From: Desulfatibacillum alkenivorans DSM 16219
GTDB lineage: Bacteria; Desulfobacterota; Desulfobacteria; Desulfobacterales; Desulfatibacillaceae
Assembly (NCBI RefSeq): GCF_900142135.1
Contig: NZ_FQZU01000025.1
Coordinates: 1 to 64,000 of the forward strand
Direction of reading: 5' to 3'
DNA length: 64,000 bases
The notes beneath the pieces are model-generated. The model was given only the letters and a program-made list of their open reading frames with translations, did not search any database and was not told the DNA's origin. Each line of letters opens with the position of its first letter. Position 1 is the first letter of the stretch. This document shows positions 3,736-14,736 of the stretch, piece after piece. The position numbers were made by a program, and so were the translations under genes.

Positions 3736-3901
3736 CTTAAAAATAAAGTAAAAGCTGAAGTGTAAAACATTTGTCAGGATGGGCCTGGGGCTTTTCAGGA
3801 AAGATCTTGTTTGGTAAAGTATAATTTCGGCAAGGTTTTTGCTTATAGTGTTCTCAAACGGATCGGACTTTCGCACCCAACCAAAAGACGCGGACAAGGC
3901 C

Positions 3902-5449
3902 ATGCTATCTGAAATAAAACATCTTGAAGGGCGCTTTCCCGGCATGCACCGGGACAACCAGGGACGGCACGTTAAAACCGTGGATAAATACAAGATCTAC
4001 GGCGCTCCTTTGGATTTCAGGGAATTGTGCGGCCGTTTGGTCAGGCCCGAGACAAAATATCTTGTTTTGGACCTGGACGGCACCTTCCACAAAGGGCTCA
4101 ACCCCGGCGTCATGCTGGGATTTGAGTTATGCGCCTATCAGGCTTACGGCCTGGATTATATGGAATCCATGGACGATAAAAACCGTCTTGGCTCCATCGT
4201 CTTGAATTGGAAGGATCAGGCCGCCCAAAGCCGGTACGCCAAAAAAGGGGCCAAAAGATGGCTGTTGCCCGGAGTTTTGTATTATTCCCTGGCCCGGGTG
4301 GGATGGAAAGCCTCGCCGGTGAGGAAGACCATCCGCCAGACTCTGGGGCCCCACGCCATGGATCGGATGCTGGCCCTCATGCGCCTGAGCCTTATGCATC
4401 AAATGGCGGGCGTTCCGGCGGAGGACGTGCACAAGCTGGTCAGAAGCCTGTGGAAGCGGCATGCGGACCGTCAGGTCATAGAGCCGGAAGACATCCAATG
4501 GCTGAGGGATTCGTTTCCAAACTTAAAAATCATCGTAAGCAGCGCGTCCCCTCGTGCCTTGCTTCAGGTGGTGCAGGAGCAGTTTCCCGTGCACGACATC
4601 TTCGCCACGGAAGTGGAAACCATCAACGGCAAAACCAGTTCGCCCCACTGGATGCATCCGGTGTTCGGAAGCGGCCAGCCTAAACGGATCGCCCCGCCTG
4701 CTTCCCTGCGCCAGAACGCTTATTACAACAAGATCAAGTATTTATCATTGAAATATCCGGACTTTATGGACTCAGGCGTCCATACCGTGGGAATCACGGA
4801 CACCAAGCATGGGGAAGACTATCCCTGGTCAGAGTATTTTAAATGCGTGGCTGATATAAACAGCCCGGACCCGTTCTCGCCTTTGGTGTCCACGGCCTCG
4901 CCGCTCAAGGAAATCCACTCGGCCAAGATTAAAACCCGCCGGGACAAGGAAGAGGCCGAGTCGGAGGAAAACGCCCAGCCTTGGGACATGCCCTCCCCCA
5001 CGCCCTCTTCGGAGAATTTTGAATTTTCCAAGCAGGACCTGGAGGATATCCTGATCAACGAACTGGCCAAGGCCGAAGCCTTGGCCATCAAGTGCTATGA
5101 CGCCGTTCCACGCGTGGTGGAAGACCTGGGCGCCATGGCCGGAGAGTCCTTTGCAATAAACCAGGCTTTGGAAAACGTGATTATCGGCTATAACGCCAGC
5201 CTCGGCGCAGATCGGGATCTGTATTTCGAAAGGGTGCAGGAAGCCCTCAAGCAGACCTACCGGCTTAACCGGCAATTGAACTCCCGCATGAATCCCGTGT
5301 CCAAACGGTGGTCCGAGATCGAAAAAATCATGGAATCCGCCCGAAGCAAAATTCACAAGAAAGCCGGGCGCTCCCTGGAAGATCAGCCGCCTCCGCCCTA
5401 CCTGGAGGACCAGCTTATCTTTTCGGAAAAAACTCTGCCCGGAGGCTGA
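3902..5449 (+). CDS. HAD-fold hydrolase-like protein with long C-terminal extension
   Basis: The protein has about 515 residues. Haloacid dehalogenase signatures are visible: motif I LVLDLDGT (Asp57 and Asp59 from this start), motif II IIVSSASPRALL near residue 208, and a late acidic motif, GITDTKHGEDYP. A large helical insert lies between motifs I and II. After about residue 340 comes an acidic linker and then a roughly 150-residue helical domain with no family I recognise. HAD enzymes are mostly Mg-dependent phosphatases, and the phosphate donor here is unknown. The frame is open upstream to a TTG at 3839. The ATG at 3902 was chosen, but no start has a convincing ribosome site. A TATAAT at 3820-3825 may be the promoter -10. 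Confidence 0.6.
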   Translation: MLSEIKHLEGRFPGMHRDNQGRHVKTVDKYKIYGAPLDFRELCGRLVRPETKYLVLDLDGTFHKGLNPGVMLGFELCAYQAYGLDYMESMDDKNRLGSIVLNWKDQAAQSRYAKKGAKRWLLPGVLYYSLARVGWKASPVRKTIRQTLGPHAMDRMLALMRLSLMHQMAGVPAEDVHKLVRSLWKRHADRQVIEPEDIQWLRDSFPNLKIIVSSASPRALLQVVQEQFPVHDIFATEVETINGKTSSPHWMHPVFGSGQPKRIAPPASLRQNAYYNKIKYLSLKYPDFMDSGVHTVGITDTKHGEDYPWSEYFKCVADINSPDPFSPLVSTASPLKEIHSAKIKTRRDKEEAESEENAQPWDMPSPTPSSENFEFSKQDLEDILINELAKAEALAIKCYDAVPRVVEDLGAMAGESFAINQALENVIIGYNASLGADRDLYFERVQEALKQTYRLNRQLNSRMNPVSKRWSEIEKIMESARSKIHKKAGRSLEDQPPPPYLEDQLIFSEKTLPGG

Positions 5450-5498: not shown

Positions 5499-6365
5499 TT
5501 ATTCCATGTTGGGCGGAGGGGGCGGCGGTCCGGAAGAAAGCGGCGGAGAAGCAGGGGGCAAAGGCGGCGGCGCCATACTCTCATAATACGCTTTTTTCCG
5601 TTTTTTCAATTTAAAGTAGGCGTAAACCGAATGGCCAAACAGCCCCAGAAAAAGCAGGGACAAGCATCCAGCAATAAGGGATGAATAGATGAAACGCGTC
5701 CTGGGGAGAGGCCAGGCCCCCTGATCGATGATCAAAACCGCACTTGGGTGGATGCTGTCAAAGTCCTCAAGCACAAGCTCCCTGGTATCCGGGTCCGAAA
5801 ACGAAAAAATCCCCTGCAGGCTGTCGTAAACGCCGTCGTCGGGTAAATCCTCCAGGCTCGTATAGATATCGGTTTTGCCAAAGATAAGACGGGCGCCGAT
5901 TTTTGGCGGCAGCGGCTCCCCCGTGGCCTCATCCAGCGCCAGCACTTGGTAGTAGATGCAGTCTACTTCAATTTCCCCGGTTTCCAGATCTTCATAATAA
6001 TCATAATAGCATTCCGAATAAAACCGGTAATGATCCGAAATTAATATGTTTCGGTTTAAAGGAAGATCACCCTGGGTAAGCCGGGCTACGGAAACCTCGG
6101 AAGGATCGGCCCGGCAATTGTCTGCGTCTTGATACCAAGCGACGGAAGCAATGCAAATTATGAGCGTAAAAACCATGGCCATAAAAAAGAAGGGTCGCTT
6201 CACCTTATCCCAATGCTCCATCAAGACATAAATGACGAAGATGGGAAAAAGCACGGTCAGCAGCCCGTGCATGGAATCGGCCATGAACACGCTGACAAGG
6301 AACCAAATGAGGGCGCCAAGCGCAACAACCATCCCCAGAAGCATAAAGAACATAGTCACGTCCAT
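5499..6365 (-). CDS. Membrane protein with proline-rich tail, last gene of the polyamine-linked operon
   Basis: This 288-residue protein has an N-terminal block of about three membrane spans (residues 5-95). An extracytoplasmic domain of about 130 residues follows, containing a Tyr/Cys-rich CYYDYYEDLE stretch. One more span lies near residues 228-250, and the short basic cytoplasmic tail ends in runs of Pro, Ser and Gly. It starts 9 bases after the spermidine synthase-like gene and is almost certainly cotranscribed with it. No family was recognised and no catalytic motif is visible. The Pro-rich tail may be a docking segment, which is inference only. Confidence 0.65.
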   Translation of the reverse strand: MDVTMFFMLLGMVVALGALIWFLVSVFMADSMHGLLTVLFPIFVIYVLMEHWDKVKRPFFFMAMVFTLIICIASVAWYQDADNCRADPSEVSVARLTQGDLPLNRNILISDHYRFYSECYYDYYEDLETGEIEVDCIYYQVLALDEATGEPLPPKIGARLIFGKTDIYTSLEDLPDDGVYDSLQGIFSFSDPDTRELVLEDFDSIHPSAVLIIDQGAWPLPRTRFIYSSLIAGCLSLLFLGLFGHSVYAYFKLKKRKKAYYESMAPPPLPPASPPLSSGPPPPPPNME

Positions 6366-6374
6366 GTGAACCTC

Positions 6375-8084
6375 CTATTCCGCCTTCCAGCTTTCGTCCA
6401 GGTAATAGGTTAGCAGCGCGGGCTCCATAAGGGTGTTAATTCTGGTTTCGCTGGTTGCAAGCGAGCCTTTGCCAAATGAAAGGGCCGCACGGAACGCGTC
6501 CGGGGTCAGATAAGCCGTATCCACCCCAAAGGTTTCAGTGGCGGCGATTCTCTTTCGGATTTCGCCCTCGTCCCTGTTTTTCCACGCCATGATCCATCCC
6601 CAATCTCCAAAGGACGGCACATTGTCATGATACGGAAGGGTTCTCCAGCCGGCGGATTCCAAAGTGCGGCGAATGCATAAATAGGATTCCCTGGCGTGAT
6701 ACGGGGACGTCGCCTGGACCACCACCATGGCGCCCGGCGCTGCGGCACTGGCCAATTTTCGGTAAAACTCCCGGGAATAAAGTTTGGCCAACTCCACGGA
6801 AGACGGATCGGGAAAGTCAATGATCACAATGTCCCATTGGCCGGGCGCCTGATCCAGAAACCGGTCCGCGTCCACGTTCATGATTTCCACCGAGGCGATC
6901 CTTTGAGTCTCCGGCTCTCCGCTGGGACGCACCTTGCCCGTATCCTGAAAGACGCGGGTCCAGCCGACTCCGGAAACCGCATCCGACGCCTTGGCGATAA
7001 CCTTGGCGCCCTCAAAGGCATGGTTGTTCAGCCGGGTCAGGATGGGATTGGTGGAGCACACCTTCACCATGTCCGGGTCCAGGTCCACCAGCAGAACATT
7101 TTGCACTTGGGGGTGTTTTAGGACTTCCCGCAAAGCCAGGCCGTCCCCTCCTCCCAGGATAAGCACCCGCTCCGGGTTTTGAACCAGGGCGAAGGCCGGA
7201 TGCACCAGGTGCTCGTGGTAAATGGCTTCATCCACGCTGGAAAACTGGAGGTTGCCGTTGATGAAAAACCGGTAGTCGTTCAAGGGGGCGTCGTAGGTCA
7301 ACACCAGTCTTTGGTACTTGGTGGTTTTGGAAAAAACGATTTTGCTGTCGTAGAGCTTTTGCTCCAGGTTCAGATTCCAATCCCGGTTATTATTGTATCC
7401 GAAAGCCAGAAGCGCGGCGGAGACCACAATCAAAATTACGCAAACAACCCGGTACTTTACCAATCCAAACTTCATAAAATACATGAAGGTGATCGCCGCG
7501 ATAAAAAAGTTGGTTCCGCCCACCAGAAAGCTGATTTCCGTCAAAGGAAAGGTTTTTAGCAGGAAAAAGGTCCAGACTATGGCGCCCGCAAAAGAGCCTA
7601 TGTAATCCGGCCCCACCACCCCGGCGATATTGGTCCCCAGCGTTTCGGAGTATTTTTCGTTTATCCGCAGGACCAGGGGGATTTCAAAGCCAATGAGAAA
7701 CCCGATGGCCATGACGAAAAAATAATTGATAACCATGAAGTGATCCGGGACGAATCCGAACGAGGCGTATATGGCGATGGGCGCGTAACCGCCCAATAAA
7801 GCCAGGAAGGTCTCCAGGAATATGAATTTTTCGATCAGATAGCGGTCGGACATGAATTTCTGGACGTAACCGGCCACGCCCATCATCAGGAGCATGAGGG
7901 CGATGGTGATGCTGAACTGCTCTATGGAGTTGCCCAGGATGTATGTGGAAACCGTGCTGAGGATGTACTCGAAAACGAGCCCGCACGCCCCGGTGGCGAA
8001 CATACTGAATCCAAGCAAAAAGGAGGCGAACCGGGGATGTTTTTTGCCCGCGGAATCGCCCCCTTTTGTATTTGATAGGCTCAT
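6375..8084 (-). CDS. Membrane-fused spermidine synthase-like aminopropyltransferase
   Basis: The protein has 569 residues. The N-terminal ~235 residues hold about seven membrane spans, and a cytosolic spermidine synthase domain follows. Family marks are visible: QFSSVDEAIYHEHLVHPA (substrate-binding YHE region), the decarboxylated-SAM loop LILGGGDGLALRE, an acidic LLVDLDPDMV strand end, and VIIDFPDP, which matches the DSxDP catalytic segment with both aspartates kept. The enzyme is therefore probably active, moving an aminopropyl group from decarboxylated SAM to a diamine or similar acceptor at the membrane. The frame extends 45 codons upstream, into the DUF350 gene. The ATG at 8084, 7 bases after that gene's stop, is the sensible start. 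No speD gene lies in the window. Confidence 0.85.
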   Translation of the reverse strand: MSLSNTKGGDSAGKKHPRFASFLLGFSMFATGACGLVFEYILSTVSTYILGNSIEQFSITIALMLLMMGVAGYVQKFMSDRYLIEKFIFLETFLALLGGYAPIAIYASFGFVPDHFMVINYFFVMAIGFLIGFEIPLVLRINEKYSETLGTNIAGVVGPDYIGSFAGAIVWTFFLLKTFPLTEISFLVGGTNFFIAAITFMYFMKFGLVKYRVVCVILIVVSAALLAFGYNNNRDWNLNLEQKLYDSKIVFSKTTKYQRLVLTYDAPLNDYRFFINGNLQFSSVDEAIYHEHLVHPAFALVQNPERVLILGGGDGLALREVLKHPQVQNVLLVDLDPDMVKVCSTNPILTRLNNHAFEGAKVIAKASDAVSGVGWTRVFQDTGKVRPSGEPETQRIASVEIMNVDADRFLDQAPGQWDIVIIDFPDPSSVELAKLYSREFYRKLASAAAPGAMVVVQATSPYHARESYLCIRRTLESAGWRTLPYHDNVPSFGDWGWIMAWKNRDEGEIRKRIAATETFGVDTAYLTPDAFRAALSFGKGSLATSETRINTLMEPALLTYYLDESWKAE

Positions 8085-8091
8085 GATGATT

Positions 8092-8934
8092 TTAAAGCAC
8101 GGCGGCGATGATGATGGCCACGGAAAGCAGCACCCCTTCCGTAAGGGCGATGGCCGCCATGTTTTGATCCCGTTTGATTTCCGTTTCGTAGTCCGTGTTG
8201 GGCAGCAGCAGCCAGTCAATCACCCACCGGAAGATAAAGAGCATAACAAGCCCTGCTCCGGCGCTGACTCCAAAGGCGGAAAGATCCCGGCTCCACCCCA
8301 TGGCCGGGCCTGCTATGCTGGAACGGAGTATGACTCCCAGGGCGACCATCATGCCGGCGGCGTTGAGCCCGGCGGCGGCGTTGCCGTTTTTTATTTCTTC
8401 CCGAATGTTGAAGGGCGTGGCTTTTTCATAGACGAAATACAGGATAAAAAGCACCAACTGCCCCAGGGCGAAAAAAACCAAAGCGCTTAATACCCCCCCG
8501 CCCTCCCCTGCAAAGGCGCCGGCGAGAACCAGCCCGGAAGCGACGTACACGCCCAGTTCGGCAAATCCCACGGCCGCGTTTCCGTTGGCCGCTTCGGCGT
8601 CGTTGTCTATGCCGCTTAAAATGACCCGGTCGCAAACCTCGCGGGCTATGAAAAGCAGGACCACAATCAGGGCGCCTTCCCAGGCCAGGGTTATCACGTC
8701 CTTGACGAACCCCATGGAGCCGCCCGTCAAAGCGCCGCTCATGCCCAGGGCGATGCCCAGATACAGCCCGGCCCGCTGCAAGCCCACGGCCGGGTTGCTT
8801 TTTTCTTCGATTTCATAGTCGTCGTCCATGTCTTTGGTGCGCCAATCCATGATTTTTTTGGCGATCACTACGTAGACCATAACAATTACGGCGTAAACAA
8901 ATCCATGCCCTGTCAATATAAGTTCCTGCATCAT
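8092..8934 (-). CDS. DUF350 membrane protein with two tandem DUF350 units
   Basis: This 280-residue protein is almost wholly membrane-embedded, with about eight hydrophobic spans. The DUF350 hallmark, an Asn-Ala-Ala/Val-Gly turn leading into a span, occurs repeatedly: SNPAVGLQRAG, GNAAVGFAELG, GNAAAGLNAAG and a weaker QNMAAIALTEG. This spacing implies two fused DUF350 units (each normally two such turns). The E. coli relative YjfL is encoded beside a PspA-family gene and a glutathionylspermidine synthase-like gene, so a link to envelope stress and polyamines is known by context. The biochemical role is unknown; a channel or transporter is possible. It sits between the lipoprotein and the aminopropyltransferase in the operon. 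Confidence 0.8.
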   Translation of the reverse strand: MMQELILTGHGFVYAVIVMVYVVIAKKIMDWRTKDMDDDYEIEEKSNPAVGLQRAGLYLGIALGMSGALTGGSMGFVKDVITLAWEGALIVVLLFIAREVCDRVILSGIDNDAEAANGNAAVGFAELGVYVASGLVLAGAFAGEGGGVLSALVFFALGQLVLFILYFVYEKATPFNIREEIKNGNAAAGLNAAGMMVALGVILRSSIAGPAMGWSRDLSAFGVSAGAGLVMLFIFRWVIDWLLLPNTDYETEIKRDQNMAAIALTEGVLLSVAIIIAAVL

Positions 8935-8989
8935 GCCGTTATGCCTCCTGATAAAACGTTGCGTTTAAAACAACGCCCGTGAACTGTCT

Positions 8990-10561
8990 TTATTTTCCCC
9001 TGGTTCCGGGGCCGCCGCCCCGTGAGGCCGGTCCGCTTCCCCTGACCGTGGGGGTGGACCTGGAAAAACCGCCGCTGCGTCCGTAATGGGAATTGGAGTA
9101 TGTTGTGCGCCCGTGGCTGGAGTATGTTCCCCAGGTGTCGGCTCCCCTGCCGTAATAGGGCCTTCTGCCGCGGTAATCCCTGTACCAGTGGTCATAGTCT
9201 CCGCGATAATAATACCTGTTCCCCATGAGCATCCTGAAAAAGGCGTACTGGCCGTACCAATGCCAAAAGGACCGGCCGCCGGAGTCCTGCCGCCATTCAC
9301 CGTATTTGGAATTGCCCACGTACTCCATGCCGGGCGGCATGGGTTCGGTCAGGGCTTCGTCCTCGTACATGCCGTAGGGCTTGGACATGATGGTCATGCC
9401 CAGGGCGTCCTCGTACTTGTCAAAGACGTCTTCGTCCACCTCAATCCAGTCGGTCTTTCTTTGATTGGCGCCTTCTATGATCAGATACTTATGATAGAAT
9501 TTGGCGTCCATGTCGCTAATCCAGAACTCGGCTTCATCGTCCCAGGCGGACATGTCCTGAGTGGGATTAAAATTCAGGGATTTCCAAACCCGGTTATCCA
9601 CGGAGGAATAGAAATTCCCCCGATACCTGGCCAGGACCGTGTTTTCCGGCAGACTCGCCAAAATTTCATAAGATTCCGCGTCCACTTGCTTGGAAGGATA
9701 GGTATAATCATTGTCCCGGTCGTACTCCGCGTTGTTGTCCCAGGATGTGCGGCCTATGGCGACAAAATAATCCACCCGCATGTCCTCCAACACTTTGGAG
9801 TAGCTTTTATAAAGCTCGGCGCTGCGTTTTTTCAGGGCCGCGCAGTCAGCCTTAACGGTTTCGTTATCCTTTTCAATCAGGGTGCACGAATCCCCCAGAA
9901 CGGCATAGTCAGCATTTTCCGAAGATTTGTGCATCTCCAATTGGGCGTGGGCTTTGTCCAAAGCCTGGGCGCTTTCCTGCTTAAGGTCAAGAACCGGGGC
10001 GAACTTGGCGTCTATGTCCTGGATTTTATCAGGATAATCGGCCTTGGCCTTTTCCAGAACCTGGGATGTAGCCTCCGTTTGCTTGGTCAAGGCGCTAAAA
10101 TCCTGCTCCGCCTTTTCCACCATGGGCTCAGGCTCGGACATGACGTCCCTTAAAAAGGCGATGCGTTTCTCCACTCTTTCGCTTGCCTGGTCGGTTTTGC
10201 GAAGCTGGCCGCGAACGTTCCCCAAAGCCCGTATCAAATCCGGCGCCTGATCCTTTTTATTCGCCTCCAACAAAGGCGTTACCTTCTGGTCATAGTCGGT
10301 CCTGCCCTTGTTCAGCATGTGCTGAGCTTCGTCCAACATGCCTTCCCAATTCTCCCGCTCCGCATACTTGGCGAATTTTTCGTATTCATCGGATTTGGCA
10401 AACCGCTCCAGACTGTTCCTTTTTTCCGTGATCTTCATGGCCAGATCGTTGATCCGTTGATCCTGGGCCCCCGCCTCTTGTTTCAAGTCCTTGGGCAGGC
10501 CGCAACCGGCCATGGACAAAGATAGCGCCAAAAGTATTATAAATAAGGCCTTCAATTTCAT
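8990..10561 (-). CDS. Lipoprotein with coiled-coil body and aromatic/Arg/Gly-rich tail
   Basis: The protein has 523 residues. A lipoprotein signal peptide ends in the lipobox LSMAGC, so the mature protein should be lipidated at Cys20. Residues 25-260 are highly charged and predicted to be largely coiled-coil. A mixed domain of about 180 residues follows. The last ~100 residues are unusual: WHWYGQYAFFRMLMGNRYYY, then repeated Tyr/Arg/Asp and a Ser/Gly/Arg run ending in RGGGPGTRGK. The ATG overlaps the preceding gene's stop by 4 bases (ATGA), showing tight coupling. Anchoring in the inner or outer membrane leaflet facing the periplasm is inferred. The Ser after the lipidated Gly would not be a retention signal, so outer-membrane placement is possible. 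Confidence 0.75.
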   Translation of the reverse strand: MKLKALFIILLALSLSMAGCGLPKDLKQEAGAQDQRINDLAMKITEKRNSLERFAKSDEYEKFAKYAERENWEGMLDEAQHMLNKGRTDYDQKVTPLLEANKKDQAPDLIRALGNVRGQLRKTDQASERVEKRIAFLRDVMSEPEPMVEKAEQDFSALTKQTEATSQVLEKAKADYPDKIQDIDAKFAPVLDLKQESAQALDKAHAQLEMHKSSENADYAVLGDSCTLIEKDNETVKADCAALKKRSAELYKSYSKVLEDMRVDYFVAIGRTSWDNNAEYDRDNDYTYPSKQVDAESYEILASLPENTVLARYRGNFYSSVDNRVWKSLNFNPTQDMSAWDDEAEFWISDMDAKFYHKYLIIEGANQRKTDWIEVDEDVFDKYEDALGMTIMSKPYGMYEDEALTEPMPPGMEYVGNSKYGEWRQDSGGRSFWHWYGQYAFFRMLMGNRYYYRGDYDHWYRDYRGRRPYYGRGADTWGTYSSHGRTTYSNSHYGRSGGFSRSTPTVRGSGPASRGGGPGTRGK

Positions 10562-11148
10562 GATTGGGGCGCCCTCCCGTCTAACTTGGTAATGATCCTG
10601 GTGCGCGTAATAACCAGGGCGTCTTCGTTGGGATAGGAATGGATGGTGGCCAGTTTCAGCAATCCTTTGTCCAGGCAGGCCCAGACAATGGTCTGGGGGG
10701 CGGGAAGTCCGTCTTGCGCCGGAAAATCATGGATCAGGCCCGTTTGCCGGTCCCTGTCCGCAGCCTGAAGCGCGGATTCCCGGATTTCCCGGGCATCCGG
10801 GTCCAAAGCCTTAAGGCTTGCGATCCTGTATTGAAAGGAGTACTCCATTTCATCCATCACAAGCGATTCCACGGGGCCGAACGGCGCTTTTAATGGGCCG
10901 TACTGGCCTAAAACCTTTCCGTTTGCGGCATCATGGCACGAAAACAACTCGTGCACGCAATTTTGGGGCGTACGAAAAGTAATCCAGTGGCTGGCGCCGA
11001 TGATTCGGGCCTCCAGCTCCAGGCCGTTGGCTTCAAGCCTTTCGGCCTCCAGCACGTGGAAGCAGGCGGGGTCCACGGGATCGGCCAGCAAGGTCAGCCG
11101 CAGGTCCGAGGCGGACATATCGACGTATGGGGATTGGTCCGTTTGCAT
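10558..11148 (-). CDS. DUF2617-like protein
   Basis: This 196-residue soluble protein lacks a signal peptide. From memory of the family it matches DUF2617 in order of landmarks: LELEARIIGASHWI near the N-terminus, a Cys-x-x-Glu (NCVHELFSC), a YSFQYRIASL strand, then GLIHDFP and the closing THSYPNEDALVITRTRI. DUF2617 is best known from actinobacteria, where it also occurs near DUF4178, DUF350 and aminopropyltransferase genes (recalled, not checked). Its start codon overlaps the DUF4178 stop by one base and its stop overlaps the lipoprotein start. Function is unknown; translational coupling suggests fixed stoichiometry with its partners. Confidence 0.65.
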   Translation of the reverse strand: MQTDQSPYVDMSASDLRLTLLADPVDPACFHVLEAERLEANGLELEARIIGASHWITFRTPQNCVHELFSCHDAANGKVLGQYGPLKAPFGPVESLVMDEMEYSFQYRIASLKALDPDAREIRESALQAADRDRQTGLIHDFPAQDGLPAPQTIVWACLDKGLLKLATIHSYPNEDALVITRTRIITKLDGRAPQS

Positions 11149-11774
11149 CAGGATTTAGCCACAAGCTCTATGGAATCGGGGTTGATCTCACGGCTGAGGA
11201 ACAGCTGGTACTCCTCCCGGCCGCCGCCCGATCCCCATTCCTCGATGGTGATCATTTTCTTATCCCGGGAGACAAAGTCGTAAAAATATACTTTTTCCGG
11301 GGATTTGCCTTCCCGTTCATACAAAGCGGCGTAATCGTCGTCGTACTCAAAGGGGGTCTTCCCGTAGAAAATTGTATCTTCCTCTTCGGCCAAGTCATCC
11401 AGGTCGTCTTCGTCCAAATCGTCGCCCCGGTCGTCCTTGATCTGGGTGAAGTCCAAAGTCTTTTCCGTGACAAAGGCTTCCACCTCGTCGTCCTTTTCCC
11501 ACTCAATATGGATGGACTCTCCGTCCTCAATGCAAAAGAGTTTGAGTTCGGTCCACAGGTCGCCGGTTTTCTTTTTAAAATCCTCGCCGGTCTCCTTGTA
11601 TACGCCGATCTCCTTGACCACATAGGTTTTGGAGTTCAGGCGGATGAAGTCCCCCAGGCCTACGTCTTCGATGGTGTATTTGTACCGTTCGTTAACGGGG
11701 ACGACCTTTTCGGGATTAAGAGACCGGGCTGCGGCAAATTGGGAGTCCAGCCTTCTTCTGACGGCGTTGTCCAT
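11148..11774 (-). CDS. DUF4178 domain protein
   Basis: The protein has 208 residues and no membrane segment or signal peptide. The DUF4178 pattern is visible: VGLGDFIRLNSKTYVVKEIG, then a WTELKLFCIEDGESIHIEWE strand pair, a long Asp/Glu-rich loop (DDRGDDLDEDDLDD) and a late region with KVYFYDFVSRDKKMITIEEW. The domain is a small beta-rich fold of unknown function that recurs beside PspA-like, DUF350 and spermidine synthase genes. The acidic loop could bind cations or polyamines, but this is speculation. It is the second gene of the operon, 50 bases after the first, and overlaps the next gene by one base. Confidence 0.7.
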   Translation of the reverse strand: MDNAVRRRLDSQFAAARSLNPEKVVPVNERYKYTIEDVGLGDFIRLNSKTYVVKEIGVYKETGEDFKKKTGDLWTELKLFCIEDGESIHIEWEKDDEVEAFVTEKTLDFTQIKDDRGDDLDEDDLDDLAEEEDTIFYGKTPFEYDDDYAALYEREGKSPEKVYFYDFVSRDKKMITIEEWGSGGGREEYQLFLSREINPDSIELVAKS

Positions 11775-11824
11775 GGTTCAACCTCTTGTTAAAAACTGTC
11801 GCTGTAAAAAACTGATTTTCCCTG

Positions 11825-12391
11825 TTATCTTGCAAAACGGGCGTTCAGAAACTTGGCCTTGACCGAGAACTCGCCCTGCTTGTGGTTCCGAACCACGTCC
11901 AGGACTTCATCCAAGGCGGTTTCCATGGCGCCCAGGCCTTGGAGAAACTCGTCCAGCTTGTCCCGGCGGTCTGCAGGATTCAGGGCCATGTAAGGTTTGA
12001 CGATGCGGAACAGGTAGTCCTCGGCGGAGCGGTTGACCTCCCAGGTCAGGTCGTTGCCTTTGTATTCCGAGTTCATTTGAGGCAGGAGGTCCCGGAGCTT
12101 GTCGATGATTCGCTCCACGGCTTCCAGAGCCTGGGAGGGAATCGCCTGCTCCCGGATATTGACGTTTAAAACCACCAGCCCATGCATCAGGGGGACGGTG
12201 GGGTCAACCGGCGCCTGGGGCTCCGGAGCGGGCTGGGGAGCATCCTTGTCCCGCAAAAACCATGCGACCACAGCGCCGGCCAAGCCGCCCGCAGCGCCTC
12301 CTACAAGGGCGATGACGATGGTTTTTCCCAAAACATAAGCCAGGACCAAGCCGGCGGCGAACAGGCCTCCTACTATCAACCAGGGTTTCAT
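11825..12391 (-). CDS. Small membrane-anchored helical protein, first gene of the operon
   Basis: The protein has 188 residues. Two hydrophobic helices (residues 4-21 and 25-45, rich in Gly and Ala) form a hairpin. A Pro-rich linker and a soluble, mostly helical domain of about 115 residues follow, with MHGLVVLNVNIREQ at its start and repeated amphipathic heptads after it. No known family was recognised. The layout (membrane hairpin plus cytosolic helical bundle) is compatible with a scaffold or sensor for the operon products. It is the first gene of the minus-strand series that continues to 5499; about 250 bases separate it from the next upstream gene. Confidence 0.65.
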   Translation of the reverse strand: MKPWLIVGGLFAAGLVLAYVLGKTIVIALVGGAAGGLAGAVVAWFLRDKDAPQPAPEPQAPVDPTVPLMHGLVVLNVNIREQAIPSQALEAVERIIDKLRDLLPQMNSEYKGNDLTWEVNRSAEDYLFRIVKPYMALNPADRRDKLDEFLQGLGAMETALDEVLDVVRNHKQGEFSVKAKFLNARFAR

Positions 12392-12643
12392 GCGCTATCC
12401 ATCATTTATTAAGCGGTTGCTTGTTTGAAGATCATGCAGGAAAGGAGACGGCCCCAAAGGCCCCGGCCTTCCCCGGCCATGGCCGATCACACGGCGCCCA
12501 TCCATAAAACCACATAATCCTGCCCTATTAACCATAAGTCGCCCCCATATTACATGGGCGGCCATTGGCGCGCAACCCTTTTCCGGGAATATGTAATACG
12601 CTTGATTAGGAGTGAATCCCCCTTTGAAAAAACCGGCAGGTCT

Positions 12644-14185
12644 CTATTCTCCGCGGATCATGGCGGCGATGGCGCCCCAGGCTGTGACGCCCGCGATCAT
12701 GGCGACGATCCAGGGCCAGTCTCCGGTCAGGCCCATAGCCTTGGCGCCCGCCTGGACCAGGGGCACAACGATGCCTCCCGCCGCCAGAAAGCCGATGACG
12801 CCGCCCATAATATGCCTGCAGCCGGGCTTTTCGGGTTTTATGTATTCGGGCTCTCCGCGCTTGTTCACGGTGACCGGCGAATCATGGGACTCCAACTTTC
12901 CTTCCACTTCCATTTCGTCATGAACGGCCCGGACCACGTCGCCGACCGTGGACATTCCCTCTTGGGCGTTATAGGGCAGGACAATGGAATATATGGATTC
13001 CAGGCCTTCCAGGACGCTTTCCAGCTGGGTTTTTGCAATCATGGGGTTGGCATGCAAGGGCAACGGCGCATCCATGGTAAGCGCGGACGCTTTCCCGCCC
13101 AATAGCTGGGACAGGTGCAGACGTATCTCATTGTATAAAGGATCTTCCTGAGGAGGCCGGGGCGCCGGGGGCGTCCGGACTTTTTGCGTCTCCCGAGGCT
13201 TGGATTGGGAAGACTTGTAAGATTCATGCCCTTGCGAGGAGCCTTTCCCGCCTGATTTGACAGGCTGGGCGGCGGCTGGAACTTCGGAAGCGGCGGGTGC
13301 GGCGGGTGCGGCGGGTGCGGCCGCCGCCAGGGTCAGAGCCTGTTCCTGAGCCGGCTTTTTTTTCTTTTTCGGCGCCAGAATCTTTCTGTATTCCTCCAGC
13401 CTGCTTCTAAAACGGGGATTTTCCTTTTCCAGGGCCTGGGCCGCCAGGCCGAACTGGTCCTTTATGGGCGAGTCGCCCACGTACTCCTTCCACCTTTCAA
13501 ACGCGGCCAGAACCAGAGCCTTGTCGTCCCATTGCTTCATGACAGGCTCCAGAATGCCGCGGACGAATTTGGCGCCGGCGGAATCGATGGCAAGCCCCAT
13601 GACGGCTAAAACAGCCAAAACCATCAGGAGCGCCCAATACCATTTCAAGGAAGTGAAATACCAGACCGCGACCACAAGCCCCAGAAACACAATGCCTATG
13701 CCCACATTGATGTTCGCGCTTCTTTCCGCATTGTCCTTTTTCAAGGCCCGGTCATAGGCTTCGTCAAACAGGATGTACAACTTTTTGGCCTTGGCGAGAA
13801 TTTCCTCTTTCTCCGGGGAGCTGTCCTCTTCTCCATCCTCGCTTTCCTGCACCTCCTCCGTTTTCCCAACCGCGGGCGCCGAAGAACTTGCCGCCGGTTC
13901 GGAGGGCTGCGGCGCCGCTTTAACCGGCGCCTGCGGTTTGGAGGCCTGCCCGGCCTCTGCGGCAAGACGGCAAATGGCGCCGGCTTTTTCAAAGGCCAAT
14001 TGATATTTCATGGCCTGCTCCGAAGTCAGGCCTTTCTTTATGATCACCGGCTTGCCTGTAAACATTTTTTCTATGCGATCCGGGGTTGCCTTGAACATTT
14101 TGGCGAGATTGGCTTTAACTTCCTGGGGCGCACGGCCAGCGGCGACCTGGCCGGAGAACAACAGAGTATAGCGGTCTTGCTCCAT
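12644..14185 (-). CDS. Multi-domain membrane protein of unknown function
   Basis: The protein has 513 residues. Residues 1-75 form a small domain (YTLLFSGQVAAGRAPQEV, then FKATPDRIEKMFTG, then KAGAICRL) that I know as an N-terminal module of assorted proteobacterial membrane proteins, without a clear name. After an Ala/Pro-rich acidic linker come two membrane spans near residues 160-205, then a helical region and a second Ala/Pro-rich linker. Two more spans close the protein (IMGGVIGFLAAGGIVVPL and WIVAMIAGVTAWGAIAAM). The ATG at 14185 was chosen; the frame extends 9 codons upstream, where the AAGGAGAAGG ribosome site would lie inside the coding sequence. It may act with the downstream operon, but a 250-base gap separates them. 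Confidence 0.65.
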   Translation of the reverse strand: MEQDRYTLLFSGQVAAGRAPQEVKANLAKMFKATPDRIEKMFTGKPVIIKKGLTSEQAMKYQLAFEKAGAICRLAAEAGQASKPQAPVKAAPQPSEPAASSSAPAVGKTEEVQESEDGEEDSSPEKEEILAKAKKLYILFDEAYDRALKKDNAERSANINVGIGIVFLGLVVAVWYFTSLKWYWALLMVLAVLAVMGLAIDSAGAKFVRGILEPVMKQWDDKALVLAAFERWKEYVGDSPIKDQFGLAAQALEKENPRFRSRLEEYRKILAPKKKKKPAQEQALTLAAAAPAAPAAPAASEVPAAAQPVKSGGKGSSQGHESYKSSQSKPRETQKVRTPPAPRPPQEDPLYNEIRLHLSQLLGGKASALTMDAPLPLHANPMIAKTQLESVLEGLESIYSIVLPYNAQEGMSTVGDVVRAVHDEMEVEGKLESHDSPVTVNKRGEPEYIKPEKPGCRHIMGGVIGFLAAGGIVVPLVQAGAKAMGLTGDWPWIVAMIAGVTAWGAIAAMIRGE

Positions 14186-14736
14186 GTGCGGAACCTTCTC
14201 CTTGCTATGCATTAACAGCGGGAACCAGCAGTTCGAACTCTCTTCCTATGGTCTAACTTTAACATTTTTTTAACATATAGCACGGAGTATCAAGAAACGG
14301 CAAGCCGTCCACTATACTTACAGTCAATAGAGCTGGTGAAAAGTTTGGGCTGCCGGATTTTTTCCCCATAGCCCGCCCTTTTTTGATGGATAACACGTCC
14401 AACCCATTGTCTTGACTGGAATTCCAGGCCCAATTGCTAAGGCTTATCAAAACACCACATATAGTAGAGTTAATATTTTCAAAATACCCTCTGTTGTGTT
14501 TTTTCCTTTACAAGGGGGCAAAGCTCTGATAAATAGGACATCATTTGCATAGTAAATGCGCCATAACGTCCCAAAAACAAAGGGGGCTCGGGAACGTCAG
14601 CCGGGAGCGTCCTTAAAATCCGTGCGTCATCCTAAAAAACTGCGGGGCCGAGCCCAAATAAAGGGGCAAGGCGGCCGCGGTTGCAATACATCGAAGAAAT
14701 TTCGGCAAGTTTCCATTCAAGGAGCGTGGAAATTCC
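14186..14736. other. Intergenic region upstream of smc
   Basis: No convincing gene was found in these 551 bases. The short open frames lack ribosome sites and family resemblance. The region must hold divergent promoters for the minus-strand membrane gene and for smc. An 8-bp inverted repeat (GGGCTCGG at 14584-14591 and CCGAGCCC at 14648-14655) could form a stem in the smc leader. The smc ribosome site AAGGAG is near 14719. Confidence 0.4.

Follow-up and report, generated by a model that had tools for sequence, protein, structure and literature searches.

In a stretch of 64,000 nucleotides from Desulfatibacillum alkenivorans DSM 16219 (contig NZ_FQZU01000025.1, positions 1 to 64,000 of the forward strand; hereafter the window), an operon of seven open reading frames (ORFs), all on the minus strand, spans 5499-12391. 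It encodes a DUF4178 protein, a DUF2617 protein, a lipoprotein, a DUF350 membrane protein and a spermidine synthase homolog (SpeE) fused to a membrane domain. With modest confidence, we favor the reading that the operon is a TelA-type cassette of DUF4178 protein, lipoprotein, DUF350 protein and membrane aminopropyltransferase that has lost TelA, and in which DUF2617, a diverged relative of S-adenosylmethionine (AdoMet) decarboxylase (AdoMetDC) replacing SpeD, feeds the membrane SpeE. DUF2617 itself is probably a divergent relative of SpeD, the AdoMet decarboxylase, that takes the place of SpeD. This kind of operon is already in print, including a PspA-less variant with DUF2617; the proposed DUF2617-SpeD relationship is the new part. 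A preliminary description of the operon, made from the sequence, saw in it a polyamine-linked envelope operon that may make or move an aminopropylated compound at the membrane. That interpretation is partly supported; it missed the published DUF2617 variant, the TelA-type nearest relatives, the position of g7 outside the unit, and DUF2617 as a candidate substitute for speD.

Below, G000 is the window's own genome, G001 the comparison genome of the same genus, L numbers are surveyed loci, and C numbers are contigs of G000. The genes, in the order of transcription, are:

g1, 11825..12391, minus strand: ORF of 188 amino acids (aa), helical, with one N-terminal transmembrane (TM) segment; g1-family profile 214 bits, 12-sequence alignment A2.
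g2, 11148..11774, minus strand: DUF4178 protein, 208 aa, no TM segments; PF13785 71 bits (cut-off 25).
g3, 10558..11148, minus strand: DUF2617 protein, 196 aa, no TM-like segments; PF10936 129.1 bits (cut-off 22.3).
g4, 8990..10561, minus strand: cassette-family lipoprotein, 523 aa, with an N-terminal hydrophobic stretch and a lipobox-like MAGC.
g5, 8092..8934, minus strand: DUF350 membrane protein, 280 aa, seven TM-like segments by hydropathy; PF03994 168.2 bits (cut-off 26).
g6, 6375..8084, minus strand: SpeE with a fused N-terminal TM domain, 569 aa; PRK03612 (NCBIfam) 643.4 bits (cut-off 472).
g7, 5499..6365, minus strand: membrane protein, 288 aa, four TM-like segments; co-directional ORF.

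The layout agrees with the preliminary description: the genes are co-directional, two junctions overlap by 1 and 4 bases, and the other gaps are 7-55 bases (from g1 to g7, +50, -1, -4, +55, +7, and +9). Its count of five membrane or lipoprotein products also stands, with TM-like segments in g1 (1), g5 (7), g6 (6), and g7 (4) and the lipobox in g4. The aminopropyltransferase motifs that it saw kept in the enzyme are intact in g6 (DEAIYHE, GGGDG, and DFPDP), which was aligned with solved aminopropyltransferases. All six TM-like segments of g6 lie before residue 232, the Pfam Spermine_synth match (106.4 bits) is above its cut-off, and the likely start is the ATG at 8084 (569 aa) rather than the TTG at 8219 of the mechanical ORF call. 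The lipoprotein g4 scores 226.7 bits against the cassette lipoprotein profile and is 27% identical to the Alteromonas cassette lipoprotein, and a Pfam search of g1 returned no family above cut-off.

In the covered sections of Ravi et al. (2024, mSystems, PMC11237479), PspA-CesT/Tir, SpeE fused to 7TM, DUF350, a lipoprotein, and DUF4178 make up six-to-seven-gene operons, the lipoprotein carrying a Ctha_1186 domain. Variants without the CesT/Tir-PspA dyad are described in the same sections, one of them with DUF4247 and DUF2617, and thus the earlier suggestion of a PspA-less variant of the DUF350, DUF4178, and spermidine synthase operons agrees with print; the terms TelA and XpaC are absent from the main text of that paper. 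The window shares with the published cassettes DUF4178, DUF350, a lipoprotein, and SpeE with an N-terminal TM domain. It differs from their main form in that the operon has no PspA or CesT/Tir gene (PspA gave no profile match in the window; CesT/Tir was not itself profile-searched), and from these cassettes in having g1, a gene typical of TelA-type cassettes. With the DUF4247-DUF2617 variant it shares DUF2617 and the order DUF4178-DUF2617-(lipoprotein or DUF4247)-DUF350-SpeE, as in Spirillospora (L122), whose DUF4247 scores 55.3 bits; in contrast, the 523-aa lipoprotein g4 of the window belongs to a different family, and none of the seven window products matches DUF4247 in Pfam at E <= 1.

Outside the genus, the nearest relatives of the window SpeE belong to the TelA-type cassettes of Desulfobacter (L070), Kangiella (L073), and Alteromonas (L051). 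These have in common with the window a g1-like gene, DUF4178, a long lipoprotein, DUF350, and SpeE, although the gene order of the Alteromonas cassette is different. TelA is retained in all three, and SpeD is encoded in cis in L051 and L073 and at another site of the genome in L070, whereas the window has DUF2617 and no match to the TelA profile. The single TelA homolog of G000 lies far from the operon (L161, 6029-7231, on C76) and scores 141.1 bits, compared with 442-629 bits for the 10 TelA loci of the survey described next.

For the neighborhood survey, genome contigs were scanned with seven SpeE fusions, and of 569 confirmed relatives the best 80 were kept. The window, G001, relatives from the phylum, and records of plasmids supplied 20 more loci, and the resulting 100 were annotated with seed-grown profiles. 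SpeE was found in 94 loci, DUF350 in 80, SpeD in 42, the lipoprotein in 40, a polyamine-oxidase-like gene in 27, PspA in 23, g1-like genes in 11, TelA in 10, and band-7 in 8; three DUF4178 profiles matched 52, 40, and 43 loci. The partner genes of the cassette recur across phyla. In nine of the 11 loci with a g1-like gene it directly precedes TelA, the other two being the window and G001. L102 is the one TelA locus that has no g1-like gene, and in G025 (L164, a locus additional to the 100) the g1-like gene adjoins TelA. Since g1-like genes normally stand before TelA, the window is marked as a TelA-type cassette. A locus from a Desulfococcaceae metagenome-assembled genome (MAG), L063, holds both TelA and DUF2617 in the order g1-TelA-DUF4178-DUF2617-lipoprotein-DUF350-SpeE, and is intermediate between the TelA-type layout and that of the window.

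The conserved unit is six genes, with g7 outside it. The order in G001, g1-DUF4178-DUF2617-lipoprotein-DUF350-SpeE, is identical to that of the six window genes, and the gene that follows SpeE there runs in the opposite direction; a phmmer search of the ORFs of the 100 loci gave no relative of g7, which is therefore lineage-specific or annexed. The seven-gene unit of the preliminary description is thereby reduced to six, and the co-conservation that it expected from a neighborhood survey is found in G001 and the 100 loci for genes other than g7.

In a tree of 93 SpeE rows, the window, G001, L063, Kangiella L073, and Alteromonas L051 form one five-row set with a support of 98, within which L073 and L051 have TelA and SpeD in cis, and the window, G001, and L063 have DUF2617. 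The five DUF2617 rows of the whole tree require at least two label changes, because Spirillospora L122 and a Bacteroidales MAG (L090) stand apart from the Desulfobacterota rows; the branches of L122 and L051 are long, and their placement is therefore unsure. DUF2617 occurs in 2 of 395 genomes of the phylum, both of the window's genus, and DUF4178 in 14 of 345. The genus may have acquired DUF2617 by gene transfer.

The absence of PspA and speD noted in the preliminary description holds for the operon but not for the genome, which has two PspA-family genes elsewhere (on C32 and C11; 130.3 and 47.5 bits) and one AdoMet_dc homolog. This homolog, on C28, is the sole AdoMet_dc match of G000 (84.7 bits), scores 30 bits against the SAM_DCase_Bsu cut-off of 75.65, and has the motif IETSLISAHF, which resembles the one that related sulfate reducers have in the second half of their SpeD-SpeDC fusions. 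In Desulfotignum SpeD-SpeDC, that second half is an ornithine decarboxylase, as shown by the S79A and S229A mutants (PMC10407285, covered sections). Judged by its motif, the C28 gene appears to be SpeDC-like; an earlier label of it as a degenerate SpeD was dropped because the motif matches that of the SpeD-SpeDC second domain. G001 has the same kind of gene, and from their sequences both genomes seem to be without a canonical AdoMet decarboxylase. Among genomes with a related SpeE, the SpeD profile PF02675 gave a strong match in eight (G025, G046, G447-G449, and G451-G453) and no match in G022, G446, and G450, the last being the genome of the DUF2617-bearing L063. Around the SpeDC-like gene (L033, about 2901-7085 of C28) lie ORFs that we read as pyridoxal phosphate (PLP)-decarboxylase-, ATP-grasp-, and acetyltransferase-like, perhaps a small amine-conjugate pathway.

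Because of this gap, the motifs of DUF2617 were compared with those of SpeD. The idea (G-x-S-H followed by E-x-x-[STA]-C, and T-[IW]-H-x-Y-P) was set down before the model and fold results. DUF2617 has G[EASNT]SH...C and T[IYW]HxYP[ENQ], resembling ESH...C and HTWPE of SpeD; in g3 these are GASH at residues 51-54, C71, and TIHSYPN at 168-174. At the sequence level, the Ser-His pair and the downstream Cys are present in all 10 DUF2617 sequences, and TxHxYP in all nine that are full-length. Two archaeal members have GESH, as in SpeD, and five have [YF]ETYHTYPE as the second motif.

Profile comparison points the same way. Aligned by hhalign, the 10 DUF2617 sequences score 29.5 against 42 SpeD sequences and 32.5 over the C-terminal half. 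None of 200 column-shuffled controls reached these scores (maxima 15.8 overall, 16.4 for the C-terminal half), the reversed SpeD gave 11.3 and 11.7, and nine named cassette families gave at most 15.1. In a second run SpeD ranked first of 25 real families (28.1, and 28.4), the best of the 24 others scoring 15.4. The hhalign probability grew with the diversity of the DUF2617 set, from 0.7 with five sequences to 9.7 with nine and 34.8 with 10 (66.6 for the C-terminal half). DUF2617 resembles bacterial (class 1b) and eukaryotic (class 2) AdoMet decarboxylases in its Ser-His...Cys and TxHxYP motifs, in profile similarity, and in the first-ranked row of the second structural comparison described below; it differs from them in the variable residue before the serine, in a first module unmatched by profile, and in the lack of a Pfam AdoMet_dc match in the window protein. 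A search of PDB sequences with DUF2617 returned nothing at E <= 10. No published link between DUF2617 and AdoMetDC was found in a literature search, in which the papers naming DUF2617 (PMC11237479, PMC13118837, and PMC9505326) were covered in part.

DUF2617 stands near or next to a membrane SpeE in members of the Desulfobacterota, in an actinomycete and a Bacteroidales MAG, and on plasmids of haloarchaea. On the plasmids, the members in L054, L217, L218, and L220 each directly follow a membrane spermidine-synthase-like gene, and that in L219 does so by our reading; L218 and L220 are annotated as DUF2617, L054 scores 24.4 bits (cut-off 22.3), and L217 and L219 are assigned by alignment and motif only. 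In L054, L218, and L220 the SpeE-DUF2617 pair is followed by a hypothetical gene of about 315 aa and a pentapeptide-repeat gene. No DUF2617 was found in viral contigs, or in genome contigs searched with the single window protein. A tblastn search of plasmids gave nothing for the window DUF2617, the actinobacterial DUF2617, or g1; this search misses distant members, since the haloarchaeal ones surfaced through their SpeE neighbors.

An AlphaFold2 model of the window DUF2617, built from a three-sequence alignment, reached a mean predicted local distance difference test score (pLDDT) of 74.4 and a predicted template modeling score (pTM) of 0.77. Its second half consists of a strand, a helix, and four strands, an order which we take to be that of the AdoMetDC module. 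In a VIA structural second look, the human AdoMetDC proenzyme (1msv) came first, with a Z of 8.2 and a root-mean-square deviation (rmsd) of 4.8 over 152 residues (model 9-196 on chain 6-296), followed by a row at Z 5.7. Lower rows included the A. aeolicus AdoMetDC 2iii (Z 4.3), the human AdoMetDC 3ep9 (Z 4.2), and human spermine synthase (3c6k, Z 4.8; 3c6m, Z 4.5) over residues 4-118, presumably its AdoMetDC-like N-domain.

DUF2617 and SpeD exclude each other in the genomes sampled. The sample comprised 71 genomes with a SpeE-fusion gene, 64 taken by SpeE match or as members of the window's genus and seven by a DUF4178 match with a fusion nearby. A joined DUF2617/SpeD profile was used; SpeD was called by profile with no motif check, and two of the SpeD matches are weak (3.1e-5 and 8.2e-4). 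SpeD was found in 56 genomes, DUF2617 in four (G000, G001, and those of L063 and L122), both in none, and neither in 11. The chance that all four DUF2617 genomes fall among the 15 SpeD-less ones is 0.0014, or 0.0066 with one genome per genus, with no further correction for kinship. In cis, among the 94 SpeE loci, 39 have SpeD, five have DUF2617, and none has both; a 10-member DUF2617 profile of higher sensitivity likewise gave no locus with both. Among 14 control genomes, Spermine_synth is present in 11, and SpeD in eight of those; the remaining three, which have a SpeE homolog but lack SpeD, include C. glutamicum and H. volcanii, both with DUF2617.

Several results weigh against DUF2617 as a relative and replacement of SpeD. 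The third SpeD-less control, L. lactis, has neither protein. The exclusion sample holds just four DUF2617 genomes, two of them from one genus, and DUF2617 is under-counted, since the joined profile did not pick up the truncated gene in L090 and the genome of that locus was counted among the 11. These 11 genomes include G022, which is 97% complete and has a SpeE of 57% identity; genomes with neither protein imply incomplete assemblies or another source of the donor. In the motifs, the residue before the serine varies among members, and bacterial DUF2617 has Asn or Gln after HxYP where SpeD has Glu after HTWP. The profile comparison gave nothing with five sequences and stayed at the modest probability quoted above with 10; the N-terminal half (probability 0.6, score 13.4) falls inside the control range, and therefore it is the motif that argues for equivalence of the first module. 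As for the structure, a single model of five was confident (the others had pLDDT 59.8, 56.4, 55.9, and 32.7), all from three sequences, and a replicate from the actinobacterial L122 DUF2617 failed, with a pLDDT of 45.6. Foldseek against PDB gave no match at E <= 1e-3, the top rows being EagT6/SciW-like with a best E of 1.6e-3. The VIA Z of 8.2 is near the 7-8 that the tool gives as usual when a model has no clear match; a Z of about 8 can be reached by unrelated models, and hence the structure alone is no proof of an AdoMetDC fold.

Three other explanations have to be weighed against these data. DUF2617 could be a non-enzymatic chaperone or binding domain (Eag-, DcrB-, or PsbP-like) that stands in for the CesT/Tir chaperone and helps to assemble the membrane complex. 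EagT6, SciW, and PA94 are indeed among the first Foldseek rows, with probabilities of 0.80-1.00, DcrB and PsbP rows appear at VIA Z 4.3-5.5, and DUF4247 and DUF2617 occupy the CesT/Tir-PspA place in published operons (PMC11237479, covered sections). Nevertheless, those Foldseek rows have TM-scores of 0.23-0.38 and rmsd of 8-13, AdoMetDC beats DcrB by 2.7 Z units, and a chaperone leaves unaccounted for the two motifs (SH...C and TxHxYP), the profile score against SpeD, and the exclusion of SpeD; we consider this explanation unlikely. Also unlikely is that DUF2617 has the SpeD fold but acts on a different substrate (ornithine, arginine, or another amino acid), so making the acceptor rather than the donor, or that it is a dead regulator. 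SpeD homologs have repeatedly turned into ornithine or arginine decarboxylases, SpeDC and SpeDA (PMC10407285, covered sections), and G000 itself keeps a SpeDC-like gene; yet the exclusion is with SpeD, the maker of the donor, and the genome is already equipped with that SpeDC-like gene and with homologs of PLP-type decarboxylases.

It would also be conceivable that the operon SpeE makes bulk spermidine only and that the other genes are incidental neighbors, since its catalytic motifs are intact and PRK03612 is named polyamine aminopropyltransferase in NCBIfam. On C8, however, G000 has an NspC gene (505.6 bits, above cut-off) that follows a carboxynorspermidine-synthase-like dehydrogenase (430.6 bits, below the cut-off of 800). 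With this separate carboxy(nor)spermidine dehydrogenase and NspC route, the bulk triamine need not come from the operon, and the recurrence of the partner genes across phyla also speaks against incidental neighbors. We regard this explanation as very improbable, in line with the preliminary description, which had treated bulk spermidine synthesis as the outcome that would contradict it.

If DUF2617 does replace SpeD, the cassette may work as follows. DUF2617 would be a two-module, far-diverged AdoMetDC relative whose first module keeps the Ser-His and Cys of the pyruvoyl-forming site and whose second module keeps the TxHxYP histidine motif. The protein would process itself at the GxSH serine to give a pyruvoyl enzyme, which, in the cytosol, would most likely decarboxylate AdoMet, or a close analogue, in place of SpeD. 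Decarboxylated AdoMet would feed the aminopropyltransferase domain of the SpeE fusion, whose N-terminal TM domain would anchor it at the inner membrane, and the fusion would aminopropylate a membrane-proximal acceptor rather than the bulk putrescine pool. A membrane and periplasmic part made up of DUF350, the lipoprotein, DUF4178, and g1 would sense, move, or use the product. A tie of the cassette to envelope stress is suggested by analogy with the published PspA linkage.

A wider and more tentative proposal is that DUF2617 could represent an unrecognized class of AdoMet decarboxylase, a compact two-module pyruvoyl enzyme, similar to eukaryotic class 2 in having a first module that is cleaved and a second that bears the histidine, that serves membrane aminopropyltransferases instead of SpeD in actinomycetes, haloarchaea, some Bacteroidales, and the window's genus. 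Class 2 enzymes are two fused class 1b proteins of which the C-terminal half is uncleaved (PMC10407285, covered sections). Were SpeD replaced by DUF2617, the source of the aminopropyl donor in C. glutamicum and H. volcanii, which have a SpeE homolog and no recognizable SpeD, would be explained, and so could the way in which some bacteria and archaea without the usual SpeD feed a membrane SpeE. A domain of unknown function would gain a testable activity, and eukaryotic class 2 AdoMetDC a prokaryotic structural cousin. It would also follow that the membrane cassettes considered here need a supply of donor whatever their partner (PspA, TelA, or band-7).

One further feature of the operon lies upstream of g1:

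12547..12575, minus strand: TTGCGC-17-TAATAT element, kept in G001 by our reading of an alignment.

This element is a possible promoter of the operon; a mechanical scan did not report it. An Rfam search of the upstream region for a riboswitch gave a single row at E <= 0.5, a long non-coding RNA at 24.8 against a gathering score of 60. Two other assignments were set aside. A match of SpeE to a defense gene (PADLOC mad2, E 2.9e-17) covers residues 301-506 only, the remaining PADLOC rows being 0.0016 or worse, and g1 as PspM reaches 26.1 bits against a cut-off of 80. The idea that g1 is XpaC is far from firm, as one of 12 g1 relatives matches Halogen_Hydrol, at 0.0028.

Next to the operon, the upstream gene (12644-14212, minus strand, 522 aa) is similar to a portion of a protein of 685 aa (L034, 11876-13933; phmmer E 1.6e-9) that sits about 4 kb from the main PspA gene of G000. 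On the other side, at 3839-5449 on the plus strand, a convergent gene encodes a 536-aa protein with an HAD-like stretch of 24.6 bits, against a Pfam cut-off of 27.

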